DNA from: a virus
Virus record (IMG/VR): IMGVR_UViG_3300010396_000019
Span: 1-45,228 of that record
DNA: 45,228 nucleotides
Direction: 5' to 3' (one strand)
Positions 1,431-40,599 of the stretch are shown here, piece by piece (positions within the stretch are counted from its first letter, which is position 1; every line of letters begins with the position of its first letter). Below the pieces are notes generated by a model, which worked only from the letters and a program-made list of their open reading frames with translations, was not told the origin of the DNA and searched no databases. A program made the translations under genes and the position numbers.

Positions 1431-1843
1431 ATCTTAGGGAATACCAGGCCAAAGACAAGCCATTTCTGGAGCAGATGCACCGCTTTCAGGGTTTCGACTA
1501 CGAATTGCCGGAACTGGACGCTCCGAATCTGTGGGTAACGCGCATGGTGCTGACGGACGCGGAAGACCAGCCGGTAAGCGCGATTTTGGGGCGCATTACG
1601 TCCGAAGCCTATTTCCTCGACTATCCCACCTCACCAAACTTAGAGCGGATGCGTAATTTCGTGGCGCTGCACGAGCTGGCCTGCGAAGTCGGCAGGCGTT
1701 CTGGCATCGACTCGACGCACGTCTGGCTTCCGCCGGAAGTGGAAAAGAGTTTTGGAGAGCAACTGGAAAAGCTCGGATGGGAAAAGTTTATGTGGGCGTC
1801 TTATATGAAGTCTCTGGAGGTAACCAGTGGCACGAGGCGCTAA
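1427..1843 (+). CDS. GNAT-like, T7 Gp13-sized virion-associated protein
   Basis: This protein has 138 residues. It begins with a short strand and a helix containing FLEQMHRF, followed by a V/I-rich hairpin (about 50-60) and a long helix near 80-92. That arrangement resembles the GCN5-acetyltransferase fold seen in phage Gp13-type proteins (DUF2833 family, typically about 140 residues). It lies between the tail tube gene and the internal virion proteins, the place where T7 keeps gene 13. A true acetyl-CoA loop is not clear, so enzymatic activity is doubtful. It overlaps the next gene by 17 bases. Confidence 0.6.
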   Translation: MNLREYQAKDKPFLEQMHRFQGFDYELPELDAPNLWVTRMVLTDAEDQPVSAILGRITSEAYFLDYPTSPNLERMRNFVALHELACEVGRRSGIDSTHVWLPPEVEKSFGEQLEKLGWEKFMWASYMKSLEVTSGTRR

Positions 1844-2342
1844 AAAGACAGGCGAGAATACCGCGCAAGCGGTTGGGCAGAGCGCGGCGGGGCAGCAGTC
1901 AACCGAGCAGGCGCAACAGGGGCAAGCGTATGGCAAGCTCGCTCCGCTGATCCAATCCTATCTGCAACCGGGAGGCAATCCGGCAGTCACGGCGGCAACG
2001 ACGGGCGCCCTGGGCTCGGCCTTTGGCACGGCCAAGCAGCAGGCGGCGGACACGGCGGCGCGCACGCGCAACGCGGCCTCGACCAATGCCACGATCGATT
2101 CACTCGCGCGCGAGCAAGGCGCGCAGGCCGCGCAGACAGCCGCCAAGAACGTAGGAGATCAGCAAAAAGAGGCTTCGGGGCTACTTTCAAACATCTACGG
2201 CATGAGCACGCAGGACATTACGAATCTTCTCAACTCGCGCACCGGAGCTAATAATTCCTACATCGGAGCGGCAAATATCAAGCCCGCTTTTAATCTTGGA
2301 TGGAGCCCAAAGAACGGCCTGAGCGTAGGAGGTAGCGCATAA
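1827..2342 (+). CDS. Ala/Gln-rich internal virion protein
   Basis: The GTG at 1827 opens a 171-residue protein inside the end of the upstream gene (GGAGG lies about seven bases before it). Residues 1-120 are almost entirely Ala, Gln, Thr and Gly in long helices, and the C-terminus becomes Asn/Gly rich. This composition and the position after the Gp13-like gene fit the small internal (core or ejection) proteins of short-tailed phages, which are stored in the capsid and injected with the DNA. The role is inferred; there is no catalytic motif. Confidence 0.65.
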   Translation: MARGAKKTGENTAQAVGQSAAGQQSTEQAQQGQAYGKLAPLIQSYLQPGGNPAVTAATTGALGSAFGTAKQQAADTAARTRNAASTNATIDSLAREQGAQAAQTAAKNVGDQQKEASGLLSNIYGMSTQDITNLLNSRTGANNSYIGAANIKPAFNLGWSPKNGLSVGGSA

Positions 2343-2534
2343 ATGAATCCAATCGCTGGCGGTATCCTGAGCGCAATTTACGGTACGGGCAGCAAACCAA
2401 AGAACCCTTGGGAGGTAGTTGCGGGAACAGGAGACGCATCGCAGGCGCCACCAGACACATCGCAACCCGCTCCCGCCAAAACTCCCGTAGCACGCTGGAC
2501 ACCGCTTTCCATGATCTTCGGGATGGGAAAATAA
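2343..2534 (+). CDS. Small Pro-rich structural protein
   Basis: This is a 63-residue protein directly following the previous stop. The first helix is Gly/Ile rich, the middle is a proline-rich linker (APAKTPVARWTP) and the end is hydrophobic (MIFGMG). No family is recognised. The gene sits between two internal virion protein genes with one base of spacing on the right, so it is likely a virion or ejection accessory. It could also be a short linker peptide that interacts with its neighbours. Confidence 0.6.
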   Translation: MNPIAGGILSAIYGTGSKPKNPWEVVAGTGDASQAPPDTSQPAPAKTPVARWTPLSMIFGMGK

Positions 2535-2535
2535 C

Positions 2536-4137
2536 ATGGCCCTCGGAACGCTTGACGACATCGAAGCCCTGCCAGAAGAACTAAAGCGCCGGATTTACCC
2601 GGTAAGCGCCGGAGTTCATCCTACGCTCGGAACGACGCAGCCGCCCGCACCCGCTCCATCGCCGGAGATTCAGCCGCAGCCACCGCGCGACACGCTGGGA
2701 ACGATCGCGCCAACGCAAACCGGACCGAGCTTTACCGACCGTTTGCAGAATATCGAACTCAGCCAGCCCGCCGCGCCGAATCCTGCCGACTACCACACCT
2801 CAACCGCGCGTAAGGTTCTCGGCACGCTGGCAAGTATTCCCGCCGGAATCTTGGGCGGCGTTCCCGCGGGGGAGCAAACCTATTCGGACGTATCGAATCC
2901 CGCGCTACACAAAGCCGAGCAGCAATATGGCTATGACGAAGGGCAGTACAAGCAACAGCTAGGCACGCTACAGAACGAAGCGGACTTTGCGAACAAGCAG
3001 CAGGAGGCTTCCGATAAATCGGCGCTGACGCAGGCGCAAACAGGTCAAGCACAGGCGAATACGGCTACGGCCCAAGCCAATGCAGACAAGGTAATGGTGA
3101 CATTGCCCGATGGAAGAGTCGCAGAGCTTCCGGTAAAGCTCGCAGAAGACTATATAAAAAGCCAAAACGTAATTGCCAATAAGCCGCCGACCGCCGAACA
3201 GGACAAGACGTGGCAGGCAGCAGCCGAGCAATCTCTTTCGCAAGGAACCATAGGCGATGCAGATCGCACTAAGTTGTCCGGAATGCAGCGCGCGGCAAAG
3301 CTGGCTGGAATTGGACCGGAAATAGCGGCACAAGTGGGGCGTCCGCCCGTTCCCGCAGACTATCCAAAGGGAGAAAACGATCCCGCCTATCAAAAGGCGA
3401 ATCAAGCATGGGGTCAAGCCGCCGAGAAGCTGAAAAATCAGGAAGCGGGCGCGAGCGGCGCCGCGCGTGGCGCGGGCTACAATGCAACACGTCCAGTGCA
3501 GGTTCTCGTGCCGCAGCCTGACGGCTCTATGGCGTCTGTTTATATGACGGCTGCACAAGCTGAAGCTGCCGGCTTCTCTCCATCCGCACAAGGTACAAAG
3601 GCAATTAGTCAGCAGGCGCAATTCAGCGATCTTAACAGCGCTATCGAGAAGGTGAATAGCGCCCTCGATGCTGTAGGCAATTCTGCCTTTACGGCCCCGC
3701 AGGTCGCCAAGCTAACGCTGGCAATGAAGGAATCCGATCCCACTGTGATGCGCAACGAGATCTCGAATCTAGCCGCATCGGGGCTTACTCCCGCACAGCA
3801 AGACCTCATTACTTGGTTGCAGCAGTTGCAGGAGAGAGCACTTTCGCTGCGCAATATTGCCGGAATGGGGCAGGGTTCGGAAACGACGCGTGATGCGATT
3901 CTTAAAGCACTGCCTGATATCACGAGCGGCAACGTCGAGATGGCGCATAAACAGCTCGACGCGCTCAAAAACATGGTCGATAACCTGCATCGCGGTATCC
4001 CTACAGTGAAGGGAAATGAACCAAATCCCTCTAGTCCCACTCCTCCAAAGGCGGGAGACGTCGTAGACGGATTCAGATTCAAAGGCGGAAATCCCGGAGA
4101 CCAAAGCAACTGGGAGAAGGTGAATGCCGCAAGATAA
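2536..4137 (+). CDS. Large internal virion (ejection) protein
   Basis: This protein has 533 residues. It has a Pro-rich disordered N-terminus (about 28-65), a Gly/Ala hydrophobic patch (about 88-110, LASIPAGILGGVPAG) that could insert in a membrane, a Gln/Ala coiled-coil stretch (about 130-180), then a helical body. No lytic or protease motif is evident. By size and position it corresponds to the gp15 or gp16 class of ejection proteins in short-tailed phages, which form a channel through the cell envelope. That is inference from context. It overlaps the next gene by 14 bases. Confidence 0.65.
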   Translation: MALGTLDDIEALPEELKRRIYPVSAGVHPTLGTTQPPAPAPSPEIQPQPPRDTLGTIAPTQTGPSFTDRLQNIELSQPAAPNPADYHTSTARKVLGTLASIPAGILGGVPAGEQTYSDVSNPALHKAEQQYGYDEGQYKQQLGTLQNEADFANKQQEASDKSALTQAQTGQAQANTATAQANADKVMVTLPDGRVAELPVKLAEDYIKSQNVIANKPPTAEQDKTWQAAAEQSLSQGTIGDADRTKLSGMQRAAKLAGIGPEIAAQVGRPPVPADYPKGENDPAYQKANQAWGQAAEKLKNQEAGASGAARGAGYNATRPVQVLVPQPDGSMASVYMTAAQAEAAGFSPSAQGTKAISQQAQFSDLNSAIEKVNSALDAVGNSAFTAPQVAKLTLAMKESDPTVMRNEISNLAASGLTPAQQDLITWLQQLQERALSLRNIAGMGQGSETTRDAILKALPDITSGNVEMAHKQLDALKNMVDNLHRGIPTVKGNEPNPSSPTPPKAGDVVDGFRFKGGNPGDQSNWEKVNAAR

Positions 4138-5212
4138 CGGACCGTGGACGAAATACGCGGCGCAAGGGCCGTGGACGAAGTACGCTCCATCAACGCCCGC
4201 AGGTTCGCCGACTGACGACCTGGAAGCTCTGCGTCAACGCTCCATGCAGCAGGCGCACGACGTTAGCGCGGCTCCAGTTCAGGCTTACGAGAAGTCGCCG
4301 CAATACGTTTACAGTTCCGAAGGGCCTGCGGGACAAGGCCAGTTTCAGCCACACGATCCAGGCGATGCAGTTCTACGTCTTGGGACATTGCCGCAGAAAA
4401 TTCACCGAGCGATTGGGAATGTTGCAGAGAATCTTGCCCCAGTAGCCGCTCCTTTGGCCGTTACCGCTCCCGTTGCACTTGCGACATCGGCGGCCGGAGG
4501 CGAAGCAGGATCACTTGCAGGCAAATATGGCTCTGAAATGTTGGGAGTTCCGTCCGATTGGGCTGACGTAGCTGGCGACGCCGGAGGTTTGGCGGGGAGT
4601 TACGGCGGTTACAGGCTCGGCACAATCGCACCTGAAAATGTGCCGCGATTTATGCGCGATCCCGCAACAGAGGAACAGTCACTGCATGGATTACCAGGAA
4701 CCGTGCGCGCTCCTAAGCTTATAAGAGACTGGGCGATTCCAGACTGGGCCGTTCCGAGGGGAGAATTAGGAACTCCAACAAACCCAGGCCCATTCCGTGA
4801 GTTTTTGGGGAGAAACGCGGACATCCCACAGATACAGTCAGAGTTAGGCTCACCTGAAAATCCGGGTTGGATGGTTAGATTACCAAACAGAATGCCCGTG
4901 CCGAAGCCTCCCGAGTCAGAGTTAGGCTCACCTGAAAATCCGGGTTGGGTCGTGAATCTTCCTAATCGTATGCCGCGTCTCGGCTCTCTCGATAATCCAG
5001 ATTTAGACGTCACGGGTCCATCAGGACAGAGACTTGGTAGGCGTCTCAGTCCTTTGATTTACGAAAATGAAGCGCAAGCAAATCAAGTAGACGCCCTCAA
5101 CGCCCGTCTGGGCGAAGAAGCGAGGAAGGCCGGGATGTACTCAGCGGCGCGGGGTAAGGTCGGTCGACCGCTTGATTATCAGCAAAGAATTGGAAGGAAA
5201 TCGCTTCCGTAG
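4124..5212 (+). CDS. Repeat-containing internal virion protein
   Basis: This is a 362-residue protein. It opens with two tandem GPWTKYA units, a peptide style common at the N-terminus of injected phage proteins. A long Ala/Val/Gly hydrophobic region (about 105-165) may be membrane-interacting. From about 215 to 300 there are four imperfect units of the form LGSPENPGWxVxLPNRMP. The two central units come from a 33-bp exact DNA duplication. The last 24 codons overlap an antisense membrane-protein gene. The function is unknown; an ejection protein is the best guess. Confidence 0.65.
   Translation: MPQDNGPWTKYAAQGPWTKYAPSTPAGSPTDDLEALRQRSMQQAHDVSAAPVQAYEKSPQYVYSSEGPAGQGQFQPHDPGDAVLRLGTLPQKIHRAIGNVAENLAPVAAPLAVTAPVALATSAAGGEAGSLAGKYGSEMLGVPSDWADVAGDAGGLAGSYGGYRLGTIAPENVPRFMRDPATEEQSLHGLPGTVRAPKLIRDWAIPDWAVPRGELGTPTNPGPFREFLGRNADIPQIQSELGSPENPGWMVRLPNRMPVPKPPESELGSPENPGWVVNLPNRMPRLGSLDNPDLDVTGPSGQRLGRRLSPLIYENEAQANQVDALNARLGEEARKAGMYSAARGKVGRPLDYQQRIGRKSLP
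4838..4870 (+). repeat. 33-bp direct repeat, copy 1
   Basis: This is identical to 4916-4948, 78 bases apart. It encodes the LGSPENPGW unit of the internal virion protein. The in-frame 26-codon period shows a recent internal duplication of the coding sequence. Confidence 0.95.
4916..4948 (+). repeat. 33-bp direct repeat, copy 2
   Basis: This is the second exact copy of 4838-4870, in the same frame. After it the protein sequence stays similar (VVNLPNRMP versus MVRLPNRMP), so the duplicated unit extends beyond the DNA identity. Confidence 0.95.
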
Positions 5213-5467: not shown

Positions 5468-5770
5468 ATGGCCTATCCAATAACGGCGCTCGGAATCGTC
5501 ACGGTAGCTACTTCCGGCACGCCCGTAAATCTGTCTGCAAACCAGCTTTTCGCCCGCAGTTTTTCCGTGCAGGGATACAAGGCGAAAGGAACGGCAAACA
5601 CCGGGATCGTCCATATCGAAGACGAAAATGCCAATCTCGTTCTGGAACTTGCTGCGGGAGCGCAGTTCACGTTCCCGGCCAGCGGGCGCGACAGGGAATA
5701 CGACCTATCGAAATTCCAAGCGGACGCCGTGACGAACGGCGACGGGGTTCTCGTAACCATACTGCCATGA
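5468..5770 (+). CDS. Small beta-rich tail-module protein
   Basis: This is a 100-residue protein with a good ribosome site (GGGGGA) before the ATG. It is predicted to be mostly beta strands (GIVTVATSGTPVNL, IVHIEDENANLVLEL, AQFTFPASG) and looks like a single beta-sandwich domain. It precedes the long spike gene and overlaps it by ATGA. It may be a tail fibre adaptor or chaperone-like capping domain. I do not recognise a named family. It carries no export signal, unlike the genes that follow. Confidence 0.65.
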   Translation: MAYPITALGIVTVATSGTPVNLSANQLFARSFSVQGYKAKGTANTGIVHIEDENANLVLELAAGAQFTFPASGRDREYDLSKFQADAVTNGDGVLVTILP

Positions 5771-8700
5771 GAAAACTGATCCTGCTTTGCGCCGTACTGG
5801 GCGCGGCATTCTCCGCAAGTGCCCAAGGTCTGATCTACAACGGTGAAGTGCGATCTACGCGCGGCCCCGTGCTTCCCGGAGTGCAGGTCAACGTATGCAC
5901 GTCAGGCGCAACGGGCGTTCCGTGCTCGCCGCAGGCTACGGTATACAGCGATCCGGGATTAACCGTACCCATTACGCAGCCCATCATTGTGGACCAGAAC
6001 GGAAAGTTCTCGTTTTACGGAAATCCAGGCACGTCCTACGTCATCAGCGAGAGCGGGCAGGGAATCTCGACCAGCTTTCCGATTCAGCTTCCTTCGGCCG
6101 GCAGCGGTTGTACGGTAGGCGGCTCTCCGGGCGCGCTGCAAAAGAACAACGGTGCTTCCGGCTGCAACGCCGCAGCCATCGTAGACAACGGCTCAACGAT
6201 CACGGCGAGCGAGCCGACTGTCGTTCCATCGCTAAATAAAGTGGTAAAGGCGGATCAGGAAGTGGGTGCTACGGCGGACGTGAAGATTGCGGCAGCGATT
6301 GCGTCCTTGCCGACGGGCGGTACGGTGGATGCACGCGGCTTCGGCGCTACAAGCCAGACCATCGCAGCCACGGTAACTGTGCCGACAGGCATCACCATTC
6401 TCTTCGATCCAAAAACGTACTATGCAGCCGGGTCTGCGGCTCTCAACTTATTCAAGCTGGAGCCGGACGCAGCAGTTGACGGATTCACATTGGATTGCAC
6501 GAGCCAGCCCACTTATTCAGGGAATGTATTTGAGAACGATACGGCGGCTGCGTATGTGGATGGTAACAATACCCGCGCGGACAATATCACGATCCTTTGC
6601 AGCGGAGTAACAACCGGAACGGGTTTGTTCCTTAGCTCCACGGCGTCAGGCACGGCTGTCGTGTGGATTGGCGCTCATCACTGGCGGCAATACGGATTGC
6701 TGAATCAAATCCTCGCTACGGCCTCCGGCAACGGATTTGTGAATGATAACCATTTCGTAGATATGCAGATGAGTGGGGGGGGTGGGACTTCCGTCCAACT
6801 CCACCTAACGCCGAACGGCGGTCAGGTTGACGCTAACCAATGCATTCAATGCTCTTTCCAAAGCCACAGCACTACCGATCTTGGATTCTTGATCGACGGC
6901 ACTTCCGGTGCGAACGACGATGCAAGCAACAATTTGTACGTGGGCGACTGTTGGGACAGCACGGTTGATTGCGCTAATTTTTCAGGAAACTCGAAGGCGA
7001 CTAACAATCAAACAGTAGGATTTTTCAACATTGGCGTTAGCGATGCCAACGGCGCAAACGGTTTGGTTTCCCAGGACAATCTCTCAACGGTAAACAGTCT
7101 TTACATTGGAGGATTCCCGACTGAAAACGTGACGCAGATCACGCACAACAGTAGCTCGACCGTCTCAGGTGTAACTGGCACGAATTATTGCCTCGCGCAA
7201 GCGCATGTGAATTTCCTGCAATGCCTAGACAACAGCGGGAACATGGGGCTGGCAGGGGCCATCAAGAGCGTAGGGGCGACTTTCACCGGCACCGTAGATG
7301 CCAGCGGAGCAACGCAGTTCAAGTTGCCCGTAGCGGCAAGCTACACAAGCGCGGCGAACGGAGAAATCGGCTACAACTCAACCGATCTCAACTGGCACTT
7401 ATTCGGCAACGGCATAGACAATATTAAAGCAATATTTCCAGCCTCGCTCTCCATCACCAACGGTCATTGCGTGAACTGGAGCAAAGTCGGGACGGTCATC
7501 ACGCTAGCCGATGCGGGCAGCGCGTGCGGATCGGGCGGAGGTGGCTCTGGCCTTATCCCATCCGTATTCATCGCTACGACAAATTGCAACAGCCTCTCAA
7601 ATTGCGTGGCGTGGACGGCGGACGATTCCACCGACAACTGCGGGGCAGCCACCACGGCTTGGCTTTCCTCTATCGCATCCTACAGCGGGGCCGGATTGCC
7701 ACAGGTCTACATCGTCGGAGGCAACGCGTCCGCTTATAAGTTCACCTCTTGCGCGCTCACGTTCACGAATCCGAATGGAACACATATCCACAGTTGGGCC
7801 AATATCGACTGCGGACAGGCTTCGGGCAACTGTATTCAATTAGGGCAAACGGGTCTTGTAGCCTACCAGCGCTCGCTGTTCACCTTTGACGGATGGGGAA
7901 CGCTTCTCGGCGGAGCCAGTCTTACAACTGCCGGAATTGAGTGCGAGTCCTTTATCGGCTGGTGCCAGGTCTCACAGACATATTTCTCCAGCTTTGGTCC
8001 GGTAAATGCCACCGGCGGCAGTTGCACGGGATACGCTATTCAGTTTGACTCTCCGGTTGCGGAATCCGACGCGCACGATAATTGGTGGGAATCGCAAACC
8101 GGGGGCCAGTGCGCGATAAACAACACGGATTCAACGTCCGGGGGTGGACAGAACACGGCGAGAATTTACGGAAATCATATCGCTGGAGGAATGGCGGCGG
8201 CTTGCGGCAGCGTGGCAATCGTGGAAGGCGGGGACCATAGCAGCGTCCACGATAATTCGATTTGGGGATTCGACATTCCTATCCGCGTCCAGAATATAAG
8301 TTCAGCTGGCCCTGAGACCGGCACAATGATTACCGAAAACTCGCTCGACAACGCAGGATGTACAGCGCATTCGGTATCGGCGGCAATCAACTTCGGCGGA
8401 ATATCCTCGACCAATGTTGTAGGGCCTGTCGTAATTTCAAATAACAATGTTCCCGGGGGCGCATCGCACGAGACCTATCTAGTGGCCCTCGCTGGCGATA
8501 CTTCATCAACGATCAAAGGCGTGACGCTTACCGGCAATCAGGCGGACGTAACTGGCATCAGTATCATGCCCCCCAGCCTGGCTTGCACAGCCTTCGCGGC
8601 CACGTTTAATCCCTGCTATGAAAGCGGAAACCAGAACCTTAGCGAAGTTACCGGCAATGGGTGGATTTTGCGCAATCAATTCGGCGGAGCGTACCAAGCT

Positions 8701-9036
8701 CTGCAAACGGCCAATATTGCATCTACTCCGACCGGATTAGTTCCTATGGCGATGGGAGCAACAGCCACATGCTACGTGGAAGTGACGCGGGTCGCGACAT
8801 CCTCCAGCACTTTGCCCTCCTGTACCGTTTCATGGACGGATAACGACACCAGCACCGTAGAGACTACGGCAGTTACGACGACGAACACCGGAAACACCGT
8901 CGGCACGCAATCATCCGGCTCTGTAGTGATGTACCCGAAAGTAGGCACCGCAATCAATTACTCAACTTCTGGTTACGCGAGTTCTGGAGCGACCTCAATG
9001 CAATATACGGTGCTTGTCCGATTGGCGGCACAATGA
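5767..9036 (+). CDS. Secreted tail-spike-like protein with signal peptide
   Basis: This is a 1089-residue protein. Residues 1-20 are a textbook Sec signal (MRK, hydrophobic core, ASA|Q cleavage). The next ~90 residues form a beta domain with a CTSG...PCSP cysteine pair. Beyond about 160 the repeated TVDARGF, NNxxxG and DNxI turns suggest a right-handed parallel beta-helix typical of phage spikes that bind or cut surface polysaccharide. A Gly-rich linker near 585 (GSGGGGSG) separates a second, again beta-helical half rich in CS/CN pairs. The C-terminus (about 1000-1089) is a small beta-sandwich. Cysteines are frequent throughout, which is odd for a protein assembled in the cytoplasm but fits a periplasmic or surface protein. 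Catalytic residues cannot be assigned. Confidence 0.75.
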   Translation: MRKLILLCAVLGAAFSASAQGLIYNGEVRSTRGPVLPGVQVNVCTSGATGVPCSPQATVYSDPGLTVPITQPIIVDQNGKFSFYGNPGTSYVISESGQGISTSFPIQLPSAGSGCTVGGSPGALQKNNGASGCNAAAIVDNGSTITASEPTVVPSLNKVVKADQEVGATADVKIAAAIASLPTGGTVDARGFGATSQTIAATVTVPTGITILFDPKTYYAAGSAALNLFKLEPDAAVDGFTLDCTSQPTYSGNVFENDTAAAYVDGNNTRADNITILCSGVTTGTGLFLSSTASGTAVVWIGAHHWRQYGLLNQILATASGNGFVNDNHFVDMQMSGGGGTSVQLHLTPNGGQVDANQCIQCSFQSHSTTDLGFLIDGTSGANDDASNNLYVGDCWDSTVDCANFSGNSKATNNQTVGFFNIGVSDANGANGLVSQDNLSTVNSLYIGGFPTENVTQITHNSSSTVSGVTGTNYCLAQAHVNFLQCLDNSGNMGLAGAIKSVGATFTGTVDASGATQFKLPVAASYTSAANGEIGYNSTDLNWHLFGNGIDNIKAIFPASLSITNGHCVNWSKVGTVITLADAGSACGSGGGGSGLIPSVFIATTNCNSLSNCVAWTADDSTDNCGAATTAWLSSIASYSGAGLPQVYIVGGNASAYKFTSCALTFTNPNGTHIHSWANIDCGQASGNCIQLGQTGLVAYQRSLFTFDGWGTLLGGASLTTAGIECESFIGWCQVSQTYFSSFGPVNATGGSCTGYAIQFDSPVAESDAHDNWWESQTGGQCAINNTDSTSGGGQNTARIYGNHIAGGMAAACGSVAIVEGGDHSSVHDNSIWGFDIPIRVQNISSAGPETGTMITENSLDNAGCTAHSVSAAINFGGISSTNVVGPVVISNNNVPGGASHETYLVALAGDTSSTIKGVTLTGNQADVTGISIMPPSLACTAFAATFNPCYESGNQNLSEVTGNGWILRNQFGGAYQALQTANIASTPTGLVPMAMGATATCYVEVTRVATSSSTLPSCTVSWTDNDTSTVETTAVTTTNTGNTVGTQSSGSVVMYPKVGTAINYSTSGYASSGATSMQYTVLVRLAAQ

Positions 9037-9713
9037 GAAAGAGACTCCCTCTTGTTTTTATAGCACTCACAATCGTTTCTCTTACAGTGGTGTCAACCAT
9101 TTGCTCGCGCGGGCAAGGGATCAATGGCGGCGTATCGCTATCGGCGACATCGCCCATCTCTCTGAGCGGGAATGCAATTACGTGCTCGTCATGCGTGACA
9201 AGTGCCACGGCAGCGGGCGGCGTCCTCAGCGGAACCTATCCCAATCCAGCCATAGCAGCGGGCGCGAATCTAGGGACACCGGGAACGCTTGTGCTCACCA
9301 ATGCAACCGGGCTTCCCGCACCGTCGGTCAACGCGGGCGCTCTTGCCAACGGCATGACCGCCACAACGCAAACAGGCGGATCAAACGATACCAATCTCGC
9401 CACGGACGCTTACGTGGACGCGCATTTCATCGCCAGCGGCACGTTCACGCTCGGTACAAGCGCGATTGCCTCCGGCGCGTGCGCAACGGTGGTAACGGCA
9501 ACGGCGACAGGCACAGCTACCACGGACGTGCTGAGCGTCGGATTCAACTCCGATCCCACGGCTGTAACTGGATACGGTGCGAGCGCGACCGGCGCGGTGC
9601 TTTCGATCTATCCCTACCCGACTGCGAATAACGCCAACGTGAAAGTCTGCAACTCGACCAGCGCGAGCATCACGCCCGGAGCCATGACGCTCAATTGGAA
9701 GGTCACACGATGA
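9033..9713 (+). CDS. Secreted tail-fibre-type protein
   Basis: This is a 226-residue protein with a hydrophobic N-terminal export signal (MRKRLPLVFIALTIVSLTVVS, then CSRGQG). A lipobox-like Cys at 24 makes a lipoprotein signal possible but not typical. Residues 60-72 carry GGVLSGTYPNPAIA, a motif that recurs in phage tail fibres and marks a fibre repeat. The rest is beta rich with two more Cys pairs (CSSC near 49-52). The start overlaps the stop of the spike by ATGA, and the end overlaps the next secreted gene in the same way, so all three are coupled. Confidence 0.7.
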   Translation: MRKRLPLVFIALTIVSLTVVSTICSRGQGINGGVSLSATSPISLSGNAITCSSCVTSATAAGGVLSGTYPNPAIAAGANLGTPGTLVLTNATGLPAPSVNAGALANGMTATTQTGGSNDTNLATDAYVDAHFIASGTFTLGTSAIASGACATVVTATATGTATTDVLSVGFNSDPTAVTGYGASATGAVLSIYPYPTANNANVKVCNSTSASITPGAMTLNWKVTR

Positions 9714-11095
9714 GACGCCTGCTGATTCTTCTCGCGTTGCTGGGCCTTGCGCTTCCGGCAAACGCCACAATCGCTATTGCGCACTCTAATCTTTCCACCA
9801 CGAGCACAACGATTAGCAGCACAACTTCTGGCGATGGCTTCGTCCTAATCGTCGGTTCGGCCAGCGCCGGGACAGCGGCCGCGATTACGGGTGGCGACTC
9901 CATGACGAAGTGGGGATGCCTGCCAACGTCCGTCTCATCGCAGCATCGCTGCCTGTTTTACATCAAGAGCGAGACATCGGGCGGTCACACGGCGTTTAGC
10001 TGTACGGGATGCGGAACAATCAATGCATATACATGGGCGGAAGTGAGCGGACAAGACACGACCACGTTTATCGACAAAGTTCTGCCGTGTTACGAGCCCG
10101 CGACTATTCCGTGGTCCTACGGCACGGACGGCACCCTCTCACAAAAATGCGTTTACAATCCCGGTTTCAGTTCCGAAGCGGTCCTGTTTGGCGCGGATGT
10201 AACTGGGACGTGCGCCAGCGCGGCAGGAACAGGCGCGACGTGGAGCACGAGCGTAGCATCTGGCGGCAATCCCGGTGGCAGCGCTATTTCCAGCGGATTC
10301 GGCCAGCTTACCTTTACTCCCGCTGTCGCTTCTTGCGGCGGCGGTAACGCCATCATGCTCGGCATCATCGGTGCGGGAGCTACGCAGAGTAGTACATGCG
10401 CGTGGGATATAGGTTATCACGACTACGGCGCGCAGATCACGACCGGCGCGAGCATGACGGTTGCTGCCAATTTCGAGCAAGCGAACAATTTGATTCTCAC
10501 AGCCGGATACGTTCTCGCGGGTGCAACGGGTGTTTCCGTGAGCGACGGTACGGATAGCTTCACGCAATCTTTTGCGGGAACGAGCGATGCGAGCACCGGA
10601 GAGGTGTTTCTGCACTACCTGCTTGGAAACACCGTAACAGGAGCACAAACAATAACCGCGACGATCACCGGATCGCACTCCAACGCGCAAATCGGTTACG
10701 CGGAGTTTATCCCGAGCGCCAAATGCACGATGGCGCATGACGCCGATTCGTCGGTTGGAACTGGCTCGGGAGCGACGGCAAACACGCCATCGATTACCGC
10801 GACAGCGGGTGCTTTGGAATGGATGTACACGGCAGCAGGTTCAGGCACGCACGTCAGTTTCACAAATTCGCCTTGGGTCTGCACGCAATTCAGGGGAGCA
10901 AGCGAGACGCTGGATTGCACCTACGTGAGCAGCCGCAACGCTTTCGGCTACGTCCTGAGCGCAAGCGGATCATCGACTGCAAACAATATGACGACGACGA
11001 CTGGACCTTGGCAGGCGGGCGCGAGTTCGTTCACGTTGATGCCGACTGGCGGCGGCAGTTCCATCGTCCCACAGGTATTCGTTCTTCGCCCATGA
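9710..11095 (+). CDS. Secreted beta-rich protein with signal peptide
   Basis: This is a 461-residue protein starting at an ATG that overlaps the previous stop (ATGA). Residues 1-19 form a clean signal peptide (MRRLLILLALLGLALPANA). The body is Ser/Thr/Gly rich with many strands and about fifteen cysteines, some in close pairs such as CTGCG. It looks like two similar jelly-roll domains (about 20-230 and 230-450), each containing a WAEVSG- or YAEFIPS-type strand. This suggests an internal duplication. It resembles adhesin or carbohydrate-binding modules of bacterial secreted proteins. Its role as tail fibre or as a host surface decoy cannot be settled. Confidence 0.65.
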   Translation: MRRLLILLALLGLALPANATIAIAHSNLSTTSTTISSTTSGDGFVLIVGSASAGTAAAITGGDSMTKWGCLPTSVSSQHRCLFYIKSETSGGHTAFSCTGCGTINAYTWAEVSGQDTTTFIDKVLPCYEPATIPWSYGTDGTLSQKCVYNPGFSSEAVLFGADVTGTCASAAGTGATWSTSVASGGNPGGSAISSGFGQLTFTPAVASCGGGNAIMLGIIGAGATQSSTCAWDIGYHDYGAQITTGASMTVAANFEQANNLILTAGYVLAGATGVSVSDGTDSFTQSFAGTSDASTGEVFLHYLLGNTVTGAQTITATITGSHSNAQIGYAEFIPSAKCTMAHDADSSVGTGSGATANTPSITATAGALEWMYTAAGSGTHVSFTNSPWVCTQFRGASETLDCTYVSSRNAFGYVLSASGSSTANNMTTTTGPWQAGASSFTLMPTGGGSSIVPQVFVLRP

Positions 11096-11298
11096 GATTC
11101 GCCCTCATCGCTCTTTTTCTGGCAGGTTGCGCAAAGCACATCGTAGCGACTCCGCCCGATCCTTGCGCGAATGTTCCGCCATGCTCGACACAACAGACGC
11201 CGAACGATCCTTGCTGCGTATGCGGGCCGGGAGCTTGTCAGAACGTACAGGGCGGTATAGGAGGCGGTCGCGTCATTGTCGTACCGGAAACGAATTAG
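11092..11298 (+). CDS. Small Cys/Pro-rich lipoprotein (spanin-like candidate)
   Basis: This 68-residue protein is too short to stand out. It begins with MRFALIALFLAGC, a canonical lipobox (LAGC at 10-13), so the mature protein would be a 56-residue lipoprotein with a Pro-rich start and seven more cysteines, including CCVCGPGAC. Small Pro-rich lipoproteins in lysis regions are often outer-membrane spanin subunits (Rz1 type), and the lysis genes follow. The heavy cysteine content is not typical of Rz1. The start overlaps the previous gene by ATGA. Confidence 0.6.
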   Translation: MRFALIALFLAGCAKHIVATPPDPCANVPPCSTQQTPNDPCCVCGPGACQNVQGGIGGGRVIVVPETN

Positions 11299-11506
11299 TG
11301 AGTGCGAGAAGGCGCGAATCCTCGCACTGCATCGGCAAAGTTTAAGTTACACGCTCATCGCAGAACGATTGAAGCTCAGCCGGGATGCCATTCAGAAATT
11401 CATGCAGAGAGAGAGGAAAAAAGGGAATGCGAAAGCCTATACGATTTTTTGCCCAGCTTATTGCATCGATGGGATTGACAGGTCTGCGTACCGCGCGCGC
11501 GGGTAG
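11276..11506 (+). CDS. Helix-turn-helix DNA-binding protein
   Basis: A 76-residue frame starts with TTG at 11276 inside the end of the lipoprotein gene. Residues 7-48 (from ISECEKARILALH to AIQKFMQRERKK) form a trihelical domain like the DNA-binding part of resolvases and transposases (helix, turn SLSYTLIAERL, recognition helix LSRDAIQKF). The tail after about 52 overlaps the next gene in another frame and looks random. The true protein may therefore be effectively just the domain. Ribosome site is weak. A role in late gene regulation is only a guess. Confidence 0.5.
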   Translation: MSYRKRISECEKARILALHRQSLSYTLIAERLKLSRDAIQKFMQRERKKGNAKAYTIFCPAYCIDGIDRSAYRARG

Positions 11507-11864
11507 GCTGCTTCTATTCGCTGTAATCGCGCTGCTTCTTTTCTGGCCCAGCTTTGGCGTCCACGCGCAAGGCGGGCATTCCATCACGCTTTCATGGACC
11601 AATCCCACAAGCGGCACTCCGGCGACGTCGGTGGACGTCTTTCGCGGCACCGCGGCCGGCGCGGAATCGGCTACGCCAGTCGCCAACGTAGCATCGCCCG
11701 GAACTTCCTACGTGGACACGAACGGCGTTGCGGGCGTGACGTACTTTTATGTGGTGAAAGAGAAAAACCAGTTTGGATCGTCTGCGGCTTCCAATGAGGT
11801 GAGCGCAACGTTTCTCGGGGACCCTCCACAGGCGGCGGCCTCGCTGGGTGCCGTCGCTAAATGA
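11427..11864 (+). CDS. Secreted fibronectin type III domain protein
   Basis: This is a 145-residue protein. An AAAAAAGGGA stretch lies right before the ATG at 11427. Residues 25-48 form a long export signal after a basic stretch (RTARAGRLLLFAVIALLLF...HAQ). The mature part (about 50-135) is one FN3 domain: it has the strand SITLSWTNP, the YVDTNGVAGVTYFYVV core and the closing SNEVSATF strand. Such domains mediate sugar or surface binding in phage tails and secreted enzymes. It is the last of the run of exported products and overlaps the next gene by ATGA. Confidence 0.7.
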   Translation: MRKPIRFFAQLIASMGLTGLRTARAGRLLLFAVIALLLFWPSFGVHAQGGHSITLSWTNPTSGTPATSVDVFRGTAAGAESATPVANVASPGTSYVDTNGVAGVTYFYVVKEKNQFGSSAASNEVSATFLGDPPQAAASLGAVAK

Positions 11865-30793: not shown

Positions 30794-31143
30794 GCGGGAA
30801 ACCACTCGGAAGGCCACGAAAAGTCCTCGATGCGGAACTAATTGCCAGATTCATCGGTAAGGGCTTTACGATTCAGTACGTTGCAGATTATTTCGGAGTC
30901 GGCGAAACCACTCTCCGCGACAACTATTCGGACGCCTTGCGAAAGGGCCGTGTATTCCGCGACGGTTGCCTGCAAGCCAAGCAGTTCCATAAGGCCATGA
31001 AGGGCGATACGACGCTGCTGATCTGGCTGGGTAAGCAGTGGCTAGGGCAGAGCGATAAGGTAGTCGCGGCAGTGCCGAACGAATTGAGTCTCGATGGTCT
31101 CAGCGTCCCAAGCCAAGGGCAAAAGCCTGCGGCAGTTAATTGA
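30790..31143 (+). CDS. terS: Terminase small subunit
   Basis: This is a 117-residue protein. Residues 14-48 form a helix-turn-helix (AELIARFIGKGFTIQYVADYF, then GETTLRDNY). The following helices (RVFRDGCLQAKQFHKAMKGD, TLLIWLGKQWLGQ) have the DTTLLIWLGKQWLG-type signature of small terminase subunits. It recognises the packaging site on phage DNA and hands it to the large subunit. The two genes overlap by 50 bases. Confidence 0.85.
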   Translation: MSGKPLGRPRKVLDAELIARFIGKGFTIQYVADYFGVGETTLRDNYSDALRKGRVFRDGCLQAKQFHKAMKGDTTLLIWLGKQWLGQSDKVVAAVPNELSLDGLSVPSQGQKPAAVN

Positions 31144-32668
31144 CCCGACGGTTAAGCAAGATGATTTCCTTCGCGCGATCGCGGAACACGATTACGTGCT
31201 TTACGGTGGCGCGGCCGGCGGAGGCAAGTCGTACATCCTGCGTTGGTGGCTGGTTCTATTCCTTGTCTGGCTGCACCAAGAGCATAAATTGCGCAATGTA
31301 CAAGTTGGCCTTTTTTGCGAGGATTATCCGAGTCTGTACGATAGACAAATCAGCAAAATCATGTTCGAGTTTCCGGCGGAACTGGGAGAACTCAAGCAGG
31401 GCGTGGTCAAGAATTTCCAGTTGCGCGCAGAGCATGGCGGCGGCGTGATTGCCCTGCGTAACTTGGACGATCCATCGAAATACCAATCGGCGGAATTTGC
31501 CGCCATTGCTGTGGATGAGCTGACCAAGAACGAGAAGCCGACGTTTGACTTTCTGCGCAGCCGGTTGCGTTGGTCAGGCGTGGCGCATCCGAAGTTTGCC
31601 GCAGGCGCGAATCCAGGCGGCATCGGTCATGAGTGGGTTAAGGCGCTGTGGATCGATAAACACTTCCCGGACGAACTGAAGCCGCTCGCCAAGCAGTTTG
31701 CGTTCGTGCAGTCGAAGGCTTCCGATAATCCGCATTTGACGGATTCCTACTACCAATCGCTGCTTACGCTTCCGCCCGACATGGCGAAAATGTTTGCGGA
31801 AGGCTCGTGGGACGTATTTGCCGGGCAGTACTTTTCCAATTTCAGTCCGGAGGCGATGGTCGAACGCCCCGAAATGTGGAATCTACGGCCTTGGCATACG
31901 CGCTGGCTCTCGGTCGATTGGGGACGCAAGCATCCTGCAGCGGTCTATTGGCACTGCCTTACCGATGACGGCGTGGCGCGGACTTACCGCGAACATATCC
32001 GCAACGGACATACGCCCAAAGATTTGGCGCGAACCATCGGGCAGCTTACCGAACGCTGGAATGCGAGCGCAGGAACGGGCGAGCAGATCAAGGCGGTTTA
32101 CCTGTCGCCGGATGCCTTCGCCAAGCGGACAGACGAGAACACGATTGCCGACCAAATGGGCGATGAGCTCGTGACATTTGGCTTGCCGCGACCCGTGCGC
32201 GCTGACGATGACCGTATTGGTGGCTGGATGCAGATGTACCAGATGCTCGATGCTGGCATGTGGAGGATTGGCTCGAATTGCATTGGCCTGATTCGCACGC
32301 TGCCCACGCTGGTGCGTGACGACCTCAAGTACGAGGACATTGCCAAGAAGGACGACTCGCGTGCCAACACAGAAGAGCACATTACCGCCCTGAATTGTTC
32401 TGGCGATGACCCAGCGGATGCCGCGCGCTACGGTCTCAAATGTGACCAGATTCTCGGCCGCAAGCCGTTTCCCGTGCGCGTCAACGATTCAATCGAAAGA
32501 ATGCAGAATCTTCGCCCGGATGGGCCGACCAACGATCCTAACGCGGTGGCGATGATGGCCCGCAAAGCCATTGCCGACCAGCGCAAGACAGCGCAGCCGG
32601 TGCGCCTGATTACCAGCAGCAGATTTCAGCCAAAGCGTTTTCGTCAGAACAATCCACGCTTCAGTTAG
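31094..32668 (+). CDS. terL: Terminase large subunit
   Basis: This is a 524-residue protein. The ATPase half has Walker A GGAAGGGKS (38-46), Walker B IAVDEL with D141 and E142, and GANPGG (171-176) as the coupling motif. The C-terminal nuclease half begins at WLSVDWGRKHPA with catalytic D275. The packaging motor docks on the portal and cuts the concatemer. The length is typical. The absence of phage-specific cohesive-end signals leaves headful packaging possible, which would agree with a circular map. Confidence 0.95.
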   Translation: MVSASQAKGKSLRQLIDPTVKQDDFLRAIAEHDYVLYGGAAGGGKSYILRWWLVLFLVWLHQEHKLRNVQVGLFCEDYPSLYDRQISKIMFEFPAELGELKQGVVKNFQLRAEHGGGVIALRNLDDPSKYQSAEFAAIAVDELTKNEKPTFDFLRSRLRWSGVAHPKFAAGANPGGIGHEWVKALWIDKHFPDELKPLAKQFAFVQSKASDNPHLTDSYYQSLLTLPPDMAKMFAEGSWDVFAGQYFSNFSPEAMVERPEMWNLRPWHTRWLSVDWGRKHPAAVYWHCLTDDGVARTYREHIRNGHTPKDLARTIGQLTERWNASAGTGEQIKAVYLSPDAFAKRTDENTIADQMGDELVTFGLPRPVRADDDRIGGWMQMYQMLDAGMWRIGSNCIGLIRTLPTLVRDDLKYEDIAKKDDSRANTEEHITALNCSGDDPADAARYGLKCDQILGRKPFPVRVNDSIERMQNLRPDGPTNDPNAVAMMARKAIADQRKTAQPVRLITSSRFQPKRFRQNNPRFS

Positions 32669-33015: not shown

Positions 33016-33861
33016 ATGAAGAAGGCATTTGCGGTAATTCTTTCGGTCCTGTTCGCTTGCGCCGTTCCGCTTTCCGCGCAGGCTCCGGGCACGGCTCTGC
33101 ATTATGCGGCCGGCACCTATGTCGCTTCGGCATACAACACCTGGCATGCGACGGTCGAGACGGCTCCGAGCGGCACAGGTTCGGGCACTATCGTTGTCGG
33201 ACCCGCGTTCGTGACGTTGCAGGACGGCTACACATTTAACCCATTCTCGACGGCCAATCCCGTCATCGTCGGGCAGGGCACGGCCAATCAGGAAACGGTT
33301 ACGCCTTCCGCGGTGAGCGTGCAGGCTTGCCCTCCTGGATTCGGTGCGACTACGCCATGCGAGGCGATTACCGCGACGTTCTCCAATACGCACGGTCAAG
33401 GCGATCTGGTCGTAAGCGGCAGTTCTGGCGTTGACGAAGCGCTGTTCGACGCCGGCAACTACGGCGGCGGTCAAGTCTATTGGTCTGCTGACGGCGGCGA
33501 TGTCACATTGGGCACCGGTGCTACCACGACCACGCTTTGCACGAGTTGCATTCCCATCAATGCCATCGTGCTCGGCGTGACGGCCCGCGTGACCACGACC
33601 ATTACCGGTACTTGCACTGGTTGGGAATTGGGTGACGGCACAACGGCTGGCCGCTTCACGGCGAATAACACGGGCCTGACGGCTGGCACCGTCTCTGCGG
33701 CCGATATTCAAACGACCAGCGGTGTTGCCTCAACCACGACCGGTATGCTCAACATCACGACCGCCAAAAACATCGTGAGTACGTGTGCCACCGGCAACCC
33801 GTCGGCTGGAGCGATCCACGCTCACGCCTGGGGTTACGTGCTGGCGACACCGAACAACTAG
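33016..33861 (+). CDS. Secreted beta-rich protein in packaging block
   Basis: This is a 281-residue protein. ATG 33016 has GAGGAGG ten bases upstream; the earlier ATG at 32980 lacks a site. Residues 1-22 are a Sec signal (MKKAFAVILSVLFACAVPLSAQA). The mature part is Gly/Thr/Ser rich with beta strands and six or more cysteines (ACPPGFGATTPC, CTSC, CTGWEL, TCATG). It looks like a surface or fibre protein placed oddly between terminase and portal. It is the sixth exported product of this phage. Confidence 0.7.
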   Translation: MKKAFAVILSVLFACAVPLSAQAPGTALHYAAGTYVASAYNTWHATVETAPSGTGSGTIVVGPAFVTLQDGYTFNPFSTANPVIVGQGTANQETVTPSAVSVQACPPGFGATTPCEAITATFSNTHGQGDLVVSGSSGVDEALFDAGNYGGGQVYWSADGGDVTLGTGATTTTLCTSCIPINAIVLGVTARVTTTITGTCTGWELGDGTTAGRFTANNTGLTAGTVSAADIQTTSGVASTTTGMLNITTAKNIVSTCATGNPSAGAIHAHAWGYVLATPNN

Positions 33862-35399: not shown

Positions 35400-37757
35400 A
35401 TGGCCTCCGTTCCCGCTGTACAAGATCAGCAGCAGCCGCAACAGAATGACGGCACGATTGTCCCCAAGGAATCGCCCGTCCACAGCGATCAGCCTTACGG
35501 CCCGAATAACGTCAATCTTCCGCAGGACATGCAGGACGCGCTGCGCTCTATGTGCCAAGAGTTCGCTAAGGAAGGGCTCGTATCGCGGCGCCATGAAATT
35601 CTTCGCTGCCGGCGCGCGCGCTTCTACTGGCAAGGCCAGCAATATCTTTGGTTCGACTGGGACAACTTCGACTGGCAAGTGCCGTACCAGGGCGGCTTCA
35701 CGATCAGCGACGACAAAGACGCACAAGAGCAGCCGCGGTATGCCTACGTGATGAACGTCTATCAGCCGTTCGGATTGGCGTTTATCGCCGTCTTTGCCTC
35801 GCAGGTTCCCACTGTGCATTTCTACCCGCAGTCGCTTAACCGCTCCGAAGACGTGACGGCTGCGAAGGCCGCATCGAACGCTTCCGACCTAATCGAAGAG
35901 AACAACCAGATTCAGCGCAAAATGATCGACGTCGCCCGGTTTTTGTGGACGGATGGCAAGGTAGGTGCGCACGTCGATTACGTTGCCGACGCGGAGAGAT
36001 TTGGCTACGCGGACGCCTCGACGATCGATCAGGGCTTCGCGCCGATGGGCGAAGATTCGTTTGTCTGTCCGCAGTGCCAAGCGGTCAATCCGGTAAGTTC
36101 CTACGCCTCGATGGATGCCCAGGGCAACGCTTCGATGCAGGAGCAGCCTACGTGCCTTAGTTGCGGTACGGGGCTAGACGAAACGAATTTCAAGGCCGCT
36201 CCTCGCGTTCCCGTGCCGATCAGCAATCCGGACAAAGTTCCCGCCGGGCAGGAAGTGATTAACTTCTACGGTGGACTCGAGCTGCACACTCCGCCGTGGT
36301 GTAACGACTTCTGGGAATACCCGTGGCTGCGCCTCTCGTTTGAGGTCGATAAAGCCAAGCCGAAAGCGGCCTATCCGCAAGTGGCGGACAAGATCGATGC
36401 GGACATTCCGATGGCGGCCGATGACGTATACTCGCGCGCTTCGCGGCTTGCCGTAGCTCAGGGCTTGCCCATGCTGCATCCGGGCGATGTGCTCTACAAC
36501 CTCGTGACGTTCAGCCGTACGTGGATCAGGCCGTGGCGCTTCGCCTCGGTCAAAGATGCAGAAATGCGGCAAAAGCTCTCGCAGGCGTTCCCCGACGGCT
36601 GCTACGTGGCATTCGCAGGGGATACGTACTGTGAATCGCGCAACGAGAGGATGTCGGATCACTGGCGCGTGATGCACGCGATGCCGGGAGACGGCCAGAG
36701 CCGTCCGGGAATTGGCGAAGCATCTCTCGATGCACAGGACCAGGTCAATACGCTGTCGAACATGGCGATTGAGATGTTTGAATACGGCATCCCGCCGATC
36801 TATGCCGACAGCGAAGTAGTGGACTTCGAGGCACTACAGCAGAGAACGATTGAGCCGGGCGTCCACGTTCCAGGAAAAGCCAAAGCGGGGCAGACGCTCG
36901 CCGCAGCGTTCTTTCAGCCGGCTCCAGCCACCGTTCCGCAGCCGATGTTCGATTACCTTCAGGAATTGCAAGGTCCGGTCTTTCAGCTTCTCACGGGCGT
37001 GACTGCCGCTGTTTTCGGCGGCTCGATGGAGGACATGAAGACCGCGAAAGCGTATCAGCAGGCGCGGGATATGAGCCTTGGACGCCTTGCTACTCCGTGG
37101 TCTGCGTTCAAACAGATGTATGCCGAAGTAATGAATCTTGCCGTCCGCTGCTTCCGCGATAACCGACCGGGAGACGTGGAGCGGGTGCTACCGGGCGAGA
37201 ACTCCGAATACCAGGCGCAGGAGATTCGCGTCATGGATCTGCGCGGAAATATCATGGCGCGCCCCGAGGCGGACGAAACCTATCCGCAGATGCGCTCTCA
37301 AAAAATGGGAGTGCTGCAACAGCTTCTCGCGCTGCAAGACCCGGAAATCACGGCCATGCTGTCCGAGCCCCATAACCTCTCGATCGTCAAATCTATTTTG
37401 GGCCTGAACGACTTCGACATACCGGGCGACGATGCGCGGATTCACCAGCTACGCGAAATCGAAGCGTTGCTCAAAGACCCGATGTCTCCAGTTGCCGCCG
37501 TGCATATATTTCAGAACCACGAGGCGCACATCGCGGAATGTATGCGCTGGATCGAATCGGACGATGGGCAGCAAGCGCAGATCAATAACCCCGCGGGGTA
37601 TGCGGCGATCGAGAGCCATATTCGCGCGCATCAGCAGGCCAAGGCTTTGCAGGAAATTATGTCGGCGGCTCCGCCAATGGGAGCGCCGGCGGGCGCGCCA
37701 GCAGGACCAGCGCCAGAGCCAAACGCTACGCCGACTCCGCAGGTGGCTGCGGTTTGA
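35400..37757 (+). CDS. Portal protein with zinc-ribbon insertion
   Basis: This is a 785-residue protein. Its size, the position between terminase and scaffold, and the tunnel-type ending (GRLATPWSAFKQMYAEVMNLAVRC region, then a Pro/Ala-rich C-terminus) identify the dodecameric portal of a short-tailed phage. Residues 221-260 insert a compact element with C223, C226, C252 and C255, a typical zinc ribbon. The portal forms the DNA channel, seeds capsid assembly and binds the terminase motor. The Ala/Pro tail (GAPAGAPAGPAPEPNA) is probably disordered. Confidence 0.85.
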   Translation: MASVPAVQDQQQPQQNDGTIVPKESPVHSDQPYGPNNVNLPQDMQDALRSMCQEFAKEGLVSRRHEILRCRRARFYWQGQQYLWFDWDNFDWQVPYQGGFTISDDKDAQEQPRYAYVMNVYQPFGLAFIAVFASQVPTVHFYPQSLNRSEDVTAAKAASNASDLIEENNQIQRKMIDVARFLWTDGKVGAHVDYVADAERFGYADASTIDQGFAPMGEDSFVCPQCQAVNPVSSYASMDAQGNASMQEQPTCLSCGTGLDETNFKAAPRVPVPISNPDKVPAGQEVINFYGGLELHTPPWCNDFWEYPWLRLSFEVDKAKPKAAYPQVADKIDADIPMAADDVYSRASRLAVAQGLPMLHPGDVLYNLVTFSRTWIRPWRFASVKDAEMRQKLSQAFPDGCYVAFAGDTYCESRNERMSDHWRVMHAMPGDGQSRPGIGEASLDAQDQVNTLSNMAIEMFEYGIPPIYADSEVVDFEALQQRTIEPGVHVPGKAKAGQTLAAAFFQPAPATVPQPMFDYLQELQGPVFQLLTGVTAAVFGGSMEDMKTAKAYQQARDMSLGRLATPWSAFKQMYAEVMNLAVRCFRDNRPGDVERVLPGENSEYQAQEIRVMDLRGNIMARPEADETYPQMRSQKMGVLQQLLALQDPEITAMLSEPHNLSIVKSILGLNDFDIPGDDARIHQLREIEALLKDPMSPVAAVHIFQNHEAHIAECMRWIESDDGQQAQINNPAGYAAIESHIRAHQQAKALQEIMSAAPPMGAPAGAPAGPAPEPNATPTPQVAAV

Positions 37758-39318: not shown

Positions 39319-40599
39319 ATGCCACAGATGCAAAATGCGCAGTCGGTCGCGTTACAGCTTGAAAAGGTGCGCGACAAACTTCCCCTGCTATACGAACGCG
39401 ACGACATACTGCTTACCATGATCCAGTCGCGCGGCGATGTCGATAAGGTTTCAACCCGCAACATGCGCATCCCCCTGCAAATCCGCCCCGGCGGCAAAGC
39501 AGGACTGGTTAACATGGACGGCGGCGACCTCGGGCGCGGCTCAGGAACCACCTACGAGTATGCTTCGGTGACTCCGATCTTCTTCAAGAACGCGGTCGAA
39601 ATCACCAAGCTCGTGGAATACGCCACCAATTCAAACGACAAGGCTATCGAAAACGCCGCCAAGAAGGAAGTGGCGAACGGCATGGCCCAGTTCCGCACGT
39701 TCCTTGACATGGTGTTGCAGGGCGCTGGAAACGGTGTCATCGGCACCGTCAGCGGCGTGGCGGGCAATACGATTACCTGTTCGGTTCCGTTCGGCGTGGC
39801 GCTGATGTATTACAACCTGCCGATCCAGTTCTACGATTCGACGCTCACCATCAATCGTAACCAGGTTGCGGGCATCGGCGACAGCAACATCACCAACACG
39901 CCCAATACGACCGCCAATACGTTCACCGTGGATAACGTTCCGGCGGGCGTTGTGGCGACGGACGTCGTCGTTCACTCCGGCCTGTCTGGAGCGAGTCCGA
40001 CCAGCTTGTACGGTCTGCGCTACCAGCAGAACAACGCTACAACCGGAATCTGGCTGAACCTGAATCGTGCGACGTATGCGACCGAATTGCAGACGCCTTC
40101 GGTCAATGCGGGCAGCACGGCTCTGTCTTTGGCGCAGATCCGCACGGCCTATAACCTCATCCGCAAAGCCTTGGGCGCGAACATGAAGCAGTCCAAGCTC
40201 GTTGCCCACACCTACGTAGGCCAGCAGCAAGCCTACGAAGCCTTGGCGATCGCGGTGCAGTCGATCATCAAGGAAGGTTTTGGCAACGGGACAACCAAAT
40301 ACGACGGCCTCTATGACAACGACAGTCTGACGATGGCCGGCGTCAAGATGAAGGCCGCGATTCACGCCGACCAGACGAAGGTCGATTTCCTCGATCTCTC
40401 GCACTGGGGACGCGCGGTGATGCAGGACATCGACTACTACGAGGTTGGTGACGGCCAGATCATGTTTCCGATCTACGGAGCGTCGGGCGGCATCGCTTCG
40501 GCGTATGTCTTCTACTTCGTGACAGGCTTCCAAGTCTGGACAGACTCGCCGCGGAGTGGCGCGTATATCTACGGCCTTACGGTTCCTTCTGGAATCTAG
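39319..40599 (+). CDS. Major capsid protein
   Basis: This is a 426-residue protein with GGAG before ATG 39319. It follows portal and scaffold genes, which is the clearest evidence. The N-arm (LPLLYERDDILLTMIQSRGD), the beta-rich middle and the C-terminal segment (GAKM-like TMAGVKMKAAIHADQTKVD, then AYVFYFVTGFQVWTDSPRS) suggest an HK97-type fold. It is the shell subunit of the icosahedral head. An 11-bp inverted repeat follows the stop. Confidence 0.8.
   Translation: MPQMQNAQSVALQLEKVRDKLPLLYERDDILLTMIQSRGDVDKVSTRNMRIPLQIRPGGKAGLVNMDGGDLGRGSGTTYEYASVTPIFFKNAVEITKLVEYATNSNDKAIENAAKKEVANGMAQFRTFLDMVLQGAGNGVIGTVSGVAGNTITCSVPFGVALMYYNLPIQFYDSTLTINRNQVAGIGDSNITNTPNTTANTFTVDNVPAGVVATDVVVHSGLSGASPTSLYGLRYQQNNATTGIWLNLNRATYATELQTPSVNAGSTALSLAQIRTAYNLIRKALGANMKQSKLVAHTYVGQQQAYEALAIAVQSIIKEGFGNGTTKYDGLYDNDSLTMAGVKMKAAIHADQTKVDFLDLSHWGRAVMQDIDYYEVGDGQIMFPIYGASGGIASAYVFYFVTGFQVWTDSPRSGAYIYGLTVPSGI

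Follow-up and report, generated by a model that had tools for sequence, protein, structure and literature searches.

In textbook accounts the assembly of tailed phages is cytoplasmic, and to our knowledge their virion proteins carry no export signals. Late phage proteins that use the host Sec pathway before lysis are nevertheless known among endolysins, e.g. Lys44 of the Oenococcus phage fOg44 and the SAR endolysins (PMC6116005).

The locus described here lies in the IMG/VR record IMGVR_UViG_3300010396_000019, the whole of which (45,228 bases) was analysed and is referred to as the window. The first and last 103 bases of the record are identical, so that the unit is 45,125 bp long and complete as a circle; a structural gene (43155 to 1089) spans the genome ends. 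The window is the complete podovirus-like genome of a phage that presumably infects a soil bacterium, in which the terminase, the capsid gene, a weak SU10-type adaptor and Cys-free, Ala/Gln-rich internal proteins give the layout of a short-tailed phage. The features that define this layout are:

1827..5212, + strand: ejection-type (internal virion) proteins, rich in Ala and Gln and without Cys, directly upstream of the signal-bearing run; neighbours conserved in related phages
31094..32668, + strand: terminase large subunit (phrog_2, E 1e-27)
35400..37757, + strand: putative portal protein, assigned from position and size; 48% identical to a prophage gene of a Terriglobia bin
39319..40599, + strand: major capsid protein (phrog_14242); 60% identical in the Terriglobia prophage
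42124..43155, + strand: tail adaptor, SU10_adaptor-like by a weak Pfam match; homologue in the Terriglobia prophage

The genome also contains a gene resembling HNH + AP2 homing endonucleases (14108-14668), with relatives in the Tunturi phages and in locus L031, and a DUF5131 gene (22905-23738; Pfam E 3e-86), whose relatives occur in many bacterial phyla. No close relative of this phage was found in the isolate-phage collection; among the matches listed, isolate-phage terminases were at most about 31% identical to that of the window.

In order to localize export signals, we applied a rule-based test to the 51 called genes, which looked for a positive n-region, an uncharged 9-residue core and either the −3/−1 cleavage rule or a lipobox. 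Six genes passed and the other 45 failed. The six are given below, with a hyphen marking the predicted cleavage site:

5767..9036, + strand: gene A, signal at residues 1-19/20 (...FSASA-QG), predicted tailspike virion-anchor domain at about 20-118, large body, C-terminal fibre module at about 960-1086
9033..9713, + strand: gene B, signal peptide or signal anchor, SGTYPNPAIA fibre motif, C-terminal module
9710..11095, + strand: gene C, signal (ALPANA-T), 12 Cys, repeated beta-sandwich-like protein
11092..11298, + strand: gene D, 68-aa Cys/Pro-rich lipoprotein (lipobox LAG-C), possible o-spanin or surface lipoprotein
11427..11864, + strand: gene E, hydrophobic N-terminal signal (start 11427 or 11469), then one FN3 domain; no Cys
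33016..33861, + strand: gene F, sixth signal gene (PLSAQ-AP), 7 Cys, fibre-like, clear Shine-Dalgarno sequence

Five of the six are consecutive (5767-11864); given six signal genes among 51, a run of at least five has a probability of 9e-5. In control tests none of 148 internal methionines passed, and only 31 of 2550 whole-protein shuffles did so. When only the first 40 residues were shuffled, 2-30% of trials still passed, since much of the signal lies in the composition, and the test is a heuristic that made at least one evident false call elsewhere (a Tunturi acetyltransferase). By the same heuristic, the n-, h- and c-regions and the cleavage motif were clear in A, C and F and weaker in B and E. 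Gene D has the Cys lipobox of a lipoprotein behind a short signal (MRFALIALFLAG-C).

In A, B, C and D the start codon overlaps the preceding stop codon (ATGA), which supports these starts and a single operon. The signal of E, which passed the test from the 11469 start, is the least certain, since the better ribosome site lies at the start first proposed (11427), from which the n-region would be unusually long. A helix-turn-helix-like ORF (11276-11506) overlaps the start of E. Gene F follows the terminase gene, before the portal gene, far from the main run and outside the region first singled out.

The original prediction had assigned N-terminal signal peptides to at least five neighbouring genes, one of them encoding a lipoprotein. 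The five that it named were all flagged by our test, the lipoprotein being D, and F was added as a sixth. The abundance of cysteines it described was found in A, B, C and D (and in F, outside the run); E has none. As for the proposed tail-fibre features, SGTYPNPAIA is present in B and one FN3 domain in E, while the beta-helix repeats suggested for A were not confirmed by Pfam. The SGTYPNPA motif was rejected as a marker of export, as a signal accompanied it in only one of about 20 other viral carriers.

Residues 20-118 of gene A, which start right behind the predicted cleavage site and contain Cys44 and Cys53, were combined with four relatives in a profile (A7) and searched against the Protein Data Bank. 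This profile matched (hmmsearch) two structures solved within tail machines, namely the cyanophage Pan3 tail spike (E 2e-6) and the "tailspike head-binding domain" of Pam1 (E 3e-4). When the stretch was modelled (pLDDT 76), the best Foldseek matches were the Pam1 and Pan3 tails, with the P22 head-binding domain ranking lower; among predicted viral proteins the matches included named tail spikes and depolymerases. Alignment of the anchor profile with eight unexported podoviral anchors by hhalign gave E 1.5e-5 and a probability of 79. Each of these lines of evidence is modest alone, but all agree when combined, and the identification of A as a real tailspike is well supported at the sequence level.

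Over its last 127 residues, A matches a signal-less fibre in phage contig L046, where the two Cys found in this part of A are missing; a genome scan with this fibre module (A3) gave no matches. The body of A had no Pfam or PDB sequence match. Two other readings of the N-terminus were discarded: (i) a carboxypeptidase-regulatory-like identity, derived from genome G234, was outranked by the stronger tailspike-anchor match, and (ii) a second internal start yielding an unexported A is unsupported, since near the cleavage point there are only GTG codons without a ribosome site.

Genes B and C have no identifiable anchor and therefore need another mode of attachment or another role. The weak cleavage site of B makes a signal anchor possible; its C-terminal 104 residues share 35% identity with the C-terminal end of a protein of 1214 aa that also bears a signal, encoded in an acidobacterial phage-type locus (L142). 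Gene C resembles signal-bearing third or fourth genes of other phages, and structure prediction (pLDDT 33) gave no fold. Recurrent odd C-terminal tails (TRHKGQIL or KIPWDxRxHRLE) were seen in C-type genes of L012 and L029-L033, on otherwise divergent exported proteins. Neither these two genes nor A and F had a match in isolate phages, and single-sequence IMG/VR queries with A, C or the terminase found no relatives.

Cysteines account for 31 of 1089 residues in A, 5 of 226 in B, 12 of 461 in C, 7 of 68 in D and 7 of 281 in F, i.e. 10% in D and 2.2-2.9% in the other four, versus 0-0.6% in the ejection proteins, scaffold, capsid, adaptor and nozzle. Signal-bearing genes were richer in Cys than their neighbours in a set of nine genomes or loci, some of them related to each other (28 versus 58 genes; Mann-Whitney p 4e-8). 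A matched contrast is provided by the syntenic podoviruses L198 and L230, whose spikes likewise follow the internal proteins; these carry no signal and contain only 0.3-0.6% Cys. The disulphide-bonded periplasmic folding put forward in the original prediction is supported by the Cys content and by Cys pairs that are missing from unexported relatives.

A prophage related to the window was found in a 48-kb contig (C44) of the Terriglobia (Acidobacteriota) bin SRVP_15 (G001), with 60% identity in the capsid protein, 48% in the portal, 38% in the terminase, 35% in the adaptor and 36% in the nozzle. Its homologue of A has a signal, a matching anchor and Cys pair and 22 Cys, and lies within the virion operon of late genes. 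The prophage differs from the window in having one signal-bearing spike, not five, located between the homologues of 41369 and 42124. The window capsid protein matched two of 386 Acidobacteriota genomes and none of 219 from Pseudomonadota, which suggests an Acidobacteriota host; binning errors are possible for SRVP_15, but the cultured Tunturi phages agree with this assignment.

Tunturi 1 and 2 are podoviruses isolated on Tunturiibacter psychrotolerans (PMC11924767); the paper describing them makes no mention of signal peptides, mass spectrometry or structural-protein analysis. In both genomes (PP887698, PP885685), with starts as annotated by the authors, gp12, gp13, gp14, gp16 and gp17 carry signals, i.e. 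five export-tagged, Cys-rich genes within six consecutive late genes. In Tunturi 2 the signal genes have 2.1% Cys versus 0.5% in other structural genes. The N-terminal domain of gp12 is of the same class as that of A; gp14 and gp17 have pectate-lyase or beta-helix and hexosaminidase-associated domains. These phages resemble the window in their Acidobacteriota host and in that gp12-gp17 are annotated as tail spike or virion structural proteins, but they belong to another capsid/terminase lineage and have another gene order. Tunturi 3 and 4, acidobacterial phages of the same collection, had no such signals in the structural regions tested. The generalization that all acidobacterial phages share the trait was therefore rejected; it is confined to some of them.

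Fusions of a signal with an anchor were seen repeatedly among phages and prophages with links to Acidobacteriota. In L030, residues 1-19 form a signal and the canonical anchor follows immediately; this anchor is 54-58% identical to those of Xanthomonas PBR31, Rhodoferax P26218 and other tail spikes, which open with Met at this point. Fusions of the same type, with the signal directly before a canonical anchor, occur in L163, L158 and L159. The signals vary in sequence between phages, but their form is kept. Among the best 80 IMG/VR anchors, 77 open the protein at or near the anchor without a signal and three carry one; no signal was present on any of the six anchors found in 299 Pseudomonadota genomes, whereas two of the three found in 386 Acidobacteriota genomes had one. 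In a further set, six of eight anchors have a signal (window A, the SRVP_15 prophage, L141, Tunturi 2 gp12, L158 and L159, but not L142 and L160), versus 3 of 80 in IMG/VR; as the two sets were collected by differing routes, the Fisher p of 4e-6 is only indicative. The comparison with related phages that the original prediction proposed thus revealed the same signal-and-anchor spikes in the Terriglobia prophage, Tunturi 1/2 and locus L162.

The exported anchor of L163 (5944-7122) has acquired two Cys (GRPCTGCKLFTY) where its relatives have PL..GG, which suggests a disulphide within the anchor itself. L162 (10693-16680), on an acidobacterial chromosome (G246), has three consecutive signal-bearing tail-type genes and, behind them, a phage lysozyme; the first of the three carries a canonical spike anchor. 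No capsid genes were recognised in its neighbourhood, and it is possibly a domesticated spike-and-lysis cassette.

Taken together, the signals, the Cys enrichment, the anchor right behind the signal, the virion-operon position and the recurrence of this arrangement are all evident from the sequences, and export is well supported on that basis. We consider it an even chance that the run at 5767-11864 encodes the receptor-binding spikes and fibres of an Acidobacteriota podovirus in the form of Sec precursors. The process would have several steps: (i) heads and the tail hub would be assembled in the cytoplasm, as usual, (ii) A, B, C and F would be translocated and their signals cleaved after ...A-Q or ...A-T, (iii) in the oxidising periplasm, disulphides would form and these proteins fold to stable spikes, the cleavage of A leaving its anchor domain as the new N-terminus, and (iv) the putative lysis genes directly downstream would open the cell, and the mixing of the compartments would let the spikes dock to the tail. 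D, and perhaps E, would be envelope proteins of the same late operon, and D may be an outer-membrane spanin.

Among the possibilities raised in the original prediction (decoration of the host envelope, addition of fibres after lysis, or capture of host genes), the second is favoured, as the virion anchor of A sits exactly where the predicted cleavage would free it. In vitro, P22 tailspikes can be attached to particles that lack nothing else, which makes docking at a late stage physically plausible. What speaks against docking is that an extracytoplasmic virion protein could meet the particle no earlier than lysis. For a whole group of Acidobacteriota tailed phages, a two-compartment virion, with a cytoplasmic head and hub, Sec-dependent periplasmic spikes and completion at lysis, has in our estimate even chances at best.

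A reading compatible with this explanation of A-C is that D, and perhaps E, belong to a lysis/spanin module that merely adjoins the spikes. D is a 68-aa Pro/Cys-rich lipoprotein, and downstream of it lie a small holin-like ORF (12047-12187) and a putative endolysin (12637-13044), which by size and hydrophobicity look like a lysis cassette. A family search of these candidate lysis genes gave no spanin or endolysin match, and no i-spanin-like partner was recognised among the ORFs overlapping or adjoining D, which leaves this assignment somewhat doubtful.

The exported spikes might instead act off the virion, coating or enzymatically trimming the host surface or exopolysaccharide and thereby blocking superinfection or the sticking of progeny to debris; the anchor domain would then be a relic or would tether the spikes to something else. 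The export signals and the lipoprotein occurring together in the run, B and C having no known anchor, and the enzymatic-type domains of Tunturi gp14 and gp17 all fit such a role. This reading must nevertheless accommodate an anchor retained at the mature N-terminus across several divergent phages. It would also leave the virion without such a tailspike, since the window was found to contain no other one that has this anchor but lacks a signal. Delivery of the spikes to the virion appears the better interpretation, and action on the host surface is its main, less probable rival.

It is more improbable that the N-terminal segments are unused for export, being poor or late signals or uncleaved hydrophobic arms, with the spikes assembled in the cytoplasm as in other phages. 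The weak c-region of B and the ambiguous start of E would agree with this, but the six signals look like textbook examples and mostly have AxA-Q/T sites, Cys enrichment tracks the signal, and signal sequences diverge between phages while keeping their form, all of which argues for export.

Finally, capture of host secreted proteins (morons) unrelated to the tail is very improbable and was unsupported here: Acidobacteriota secrete many Cys-rich, Ig-like proteins, gene 10447 of L030 has HYDIN/Cep192-type Ig domains and the N-terminus of A is weakly like a carboxypeptidase-regulatory-like start in one genome, but A and its relatives have phage anchors and belong to virion operons, where they are flanked by adaptor or ejection genes on one side and by lysis genes on the other, and 297 Acidobacteriota genomes contained no cellular full-length relative of A, the only matches being the prophage tailspike and a weak one to that 957-residue carboxypeptidase-regulatory-like protein.

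If spikes do use the Sec pathway, an extracytoplasmic, oxidising step would be added to tailed-phage assembly, which would account for fibres unusually rich in Cys and link the completion of virions to lysis. Host prediction and the annotation of receptor-binding proteins would be affected too, as would the rule by which signal peptides are taken to mark morons or lysis genes. As far as we found, export-tagged tail spikes have not been described before: open-access titles and abstracts contained no report of signal peptides on tailed-phage spikes, which is weak evidence of absence, as subscription journals lay largely outside this scope. What is apparently new is the export route, added to known tailspike anchors.

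Sec-exported endolysins resemble the window spikes in being late phage proteins that use host Sec before lysis, but they are lysis enzymes, not virion parts. Compared with podoviral tailspikes that have a head-binding domain of the Pam1/Pan3/P22 type, A shares the anchor (in profile and fold), the place after the ejection proteins, the large body and the fibre-type C-terminus; it differs in the preceding Sec signal, in its Cys richness and in the Cys pairs inside the anchor.
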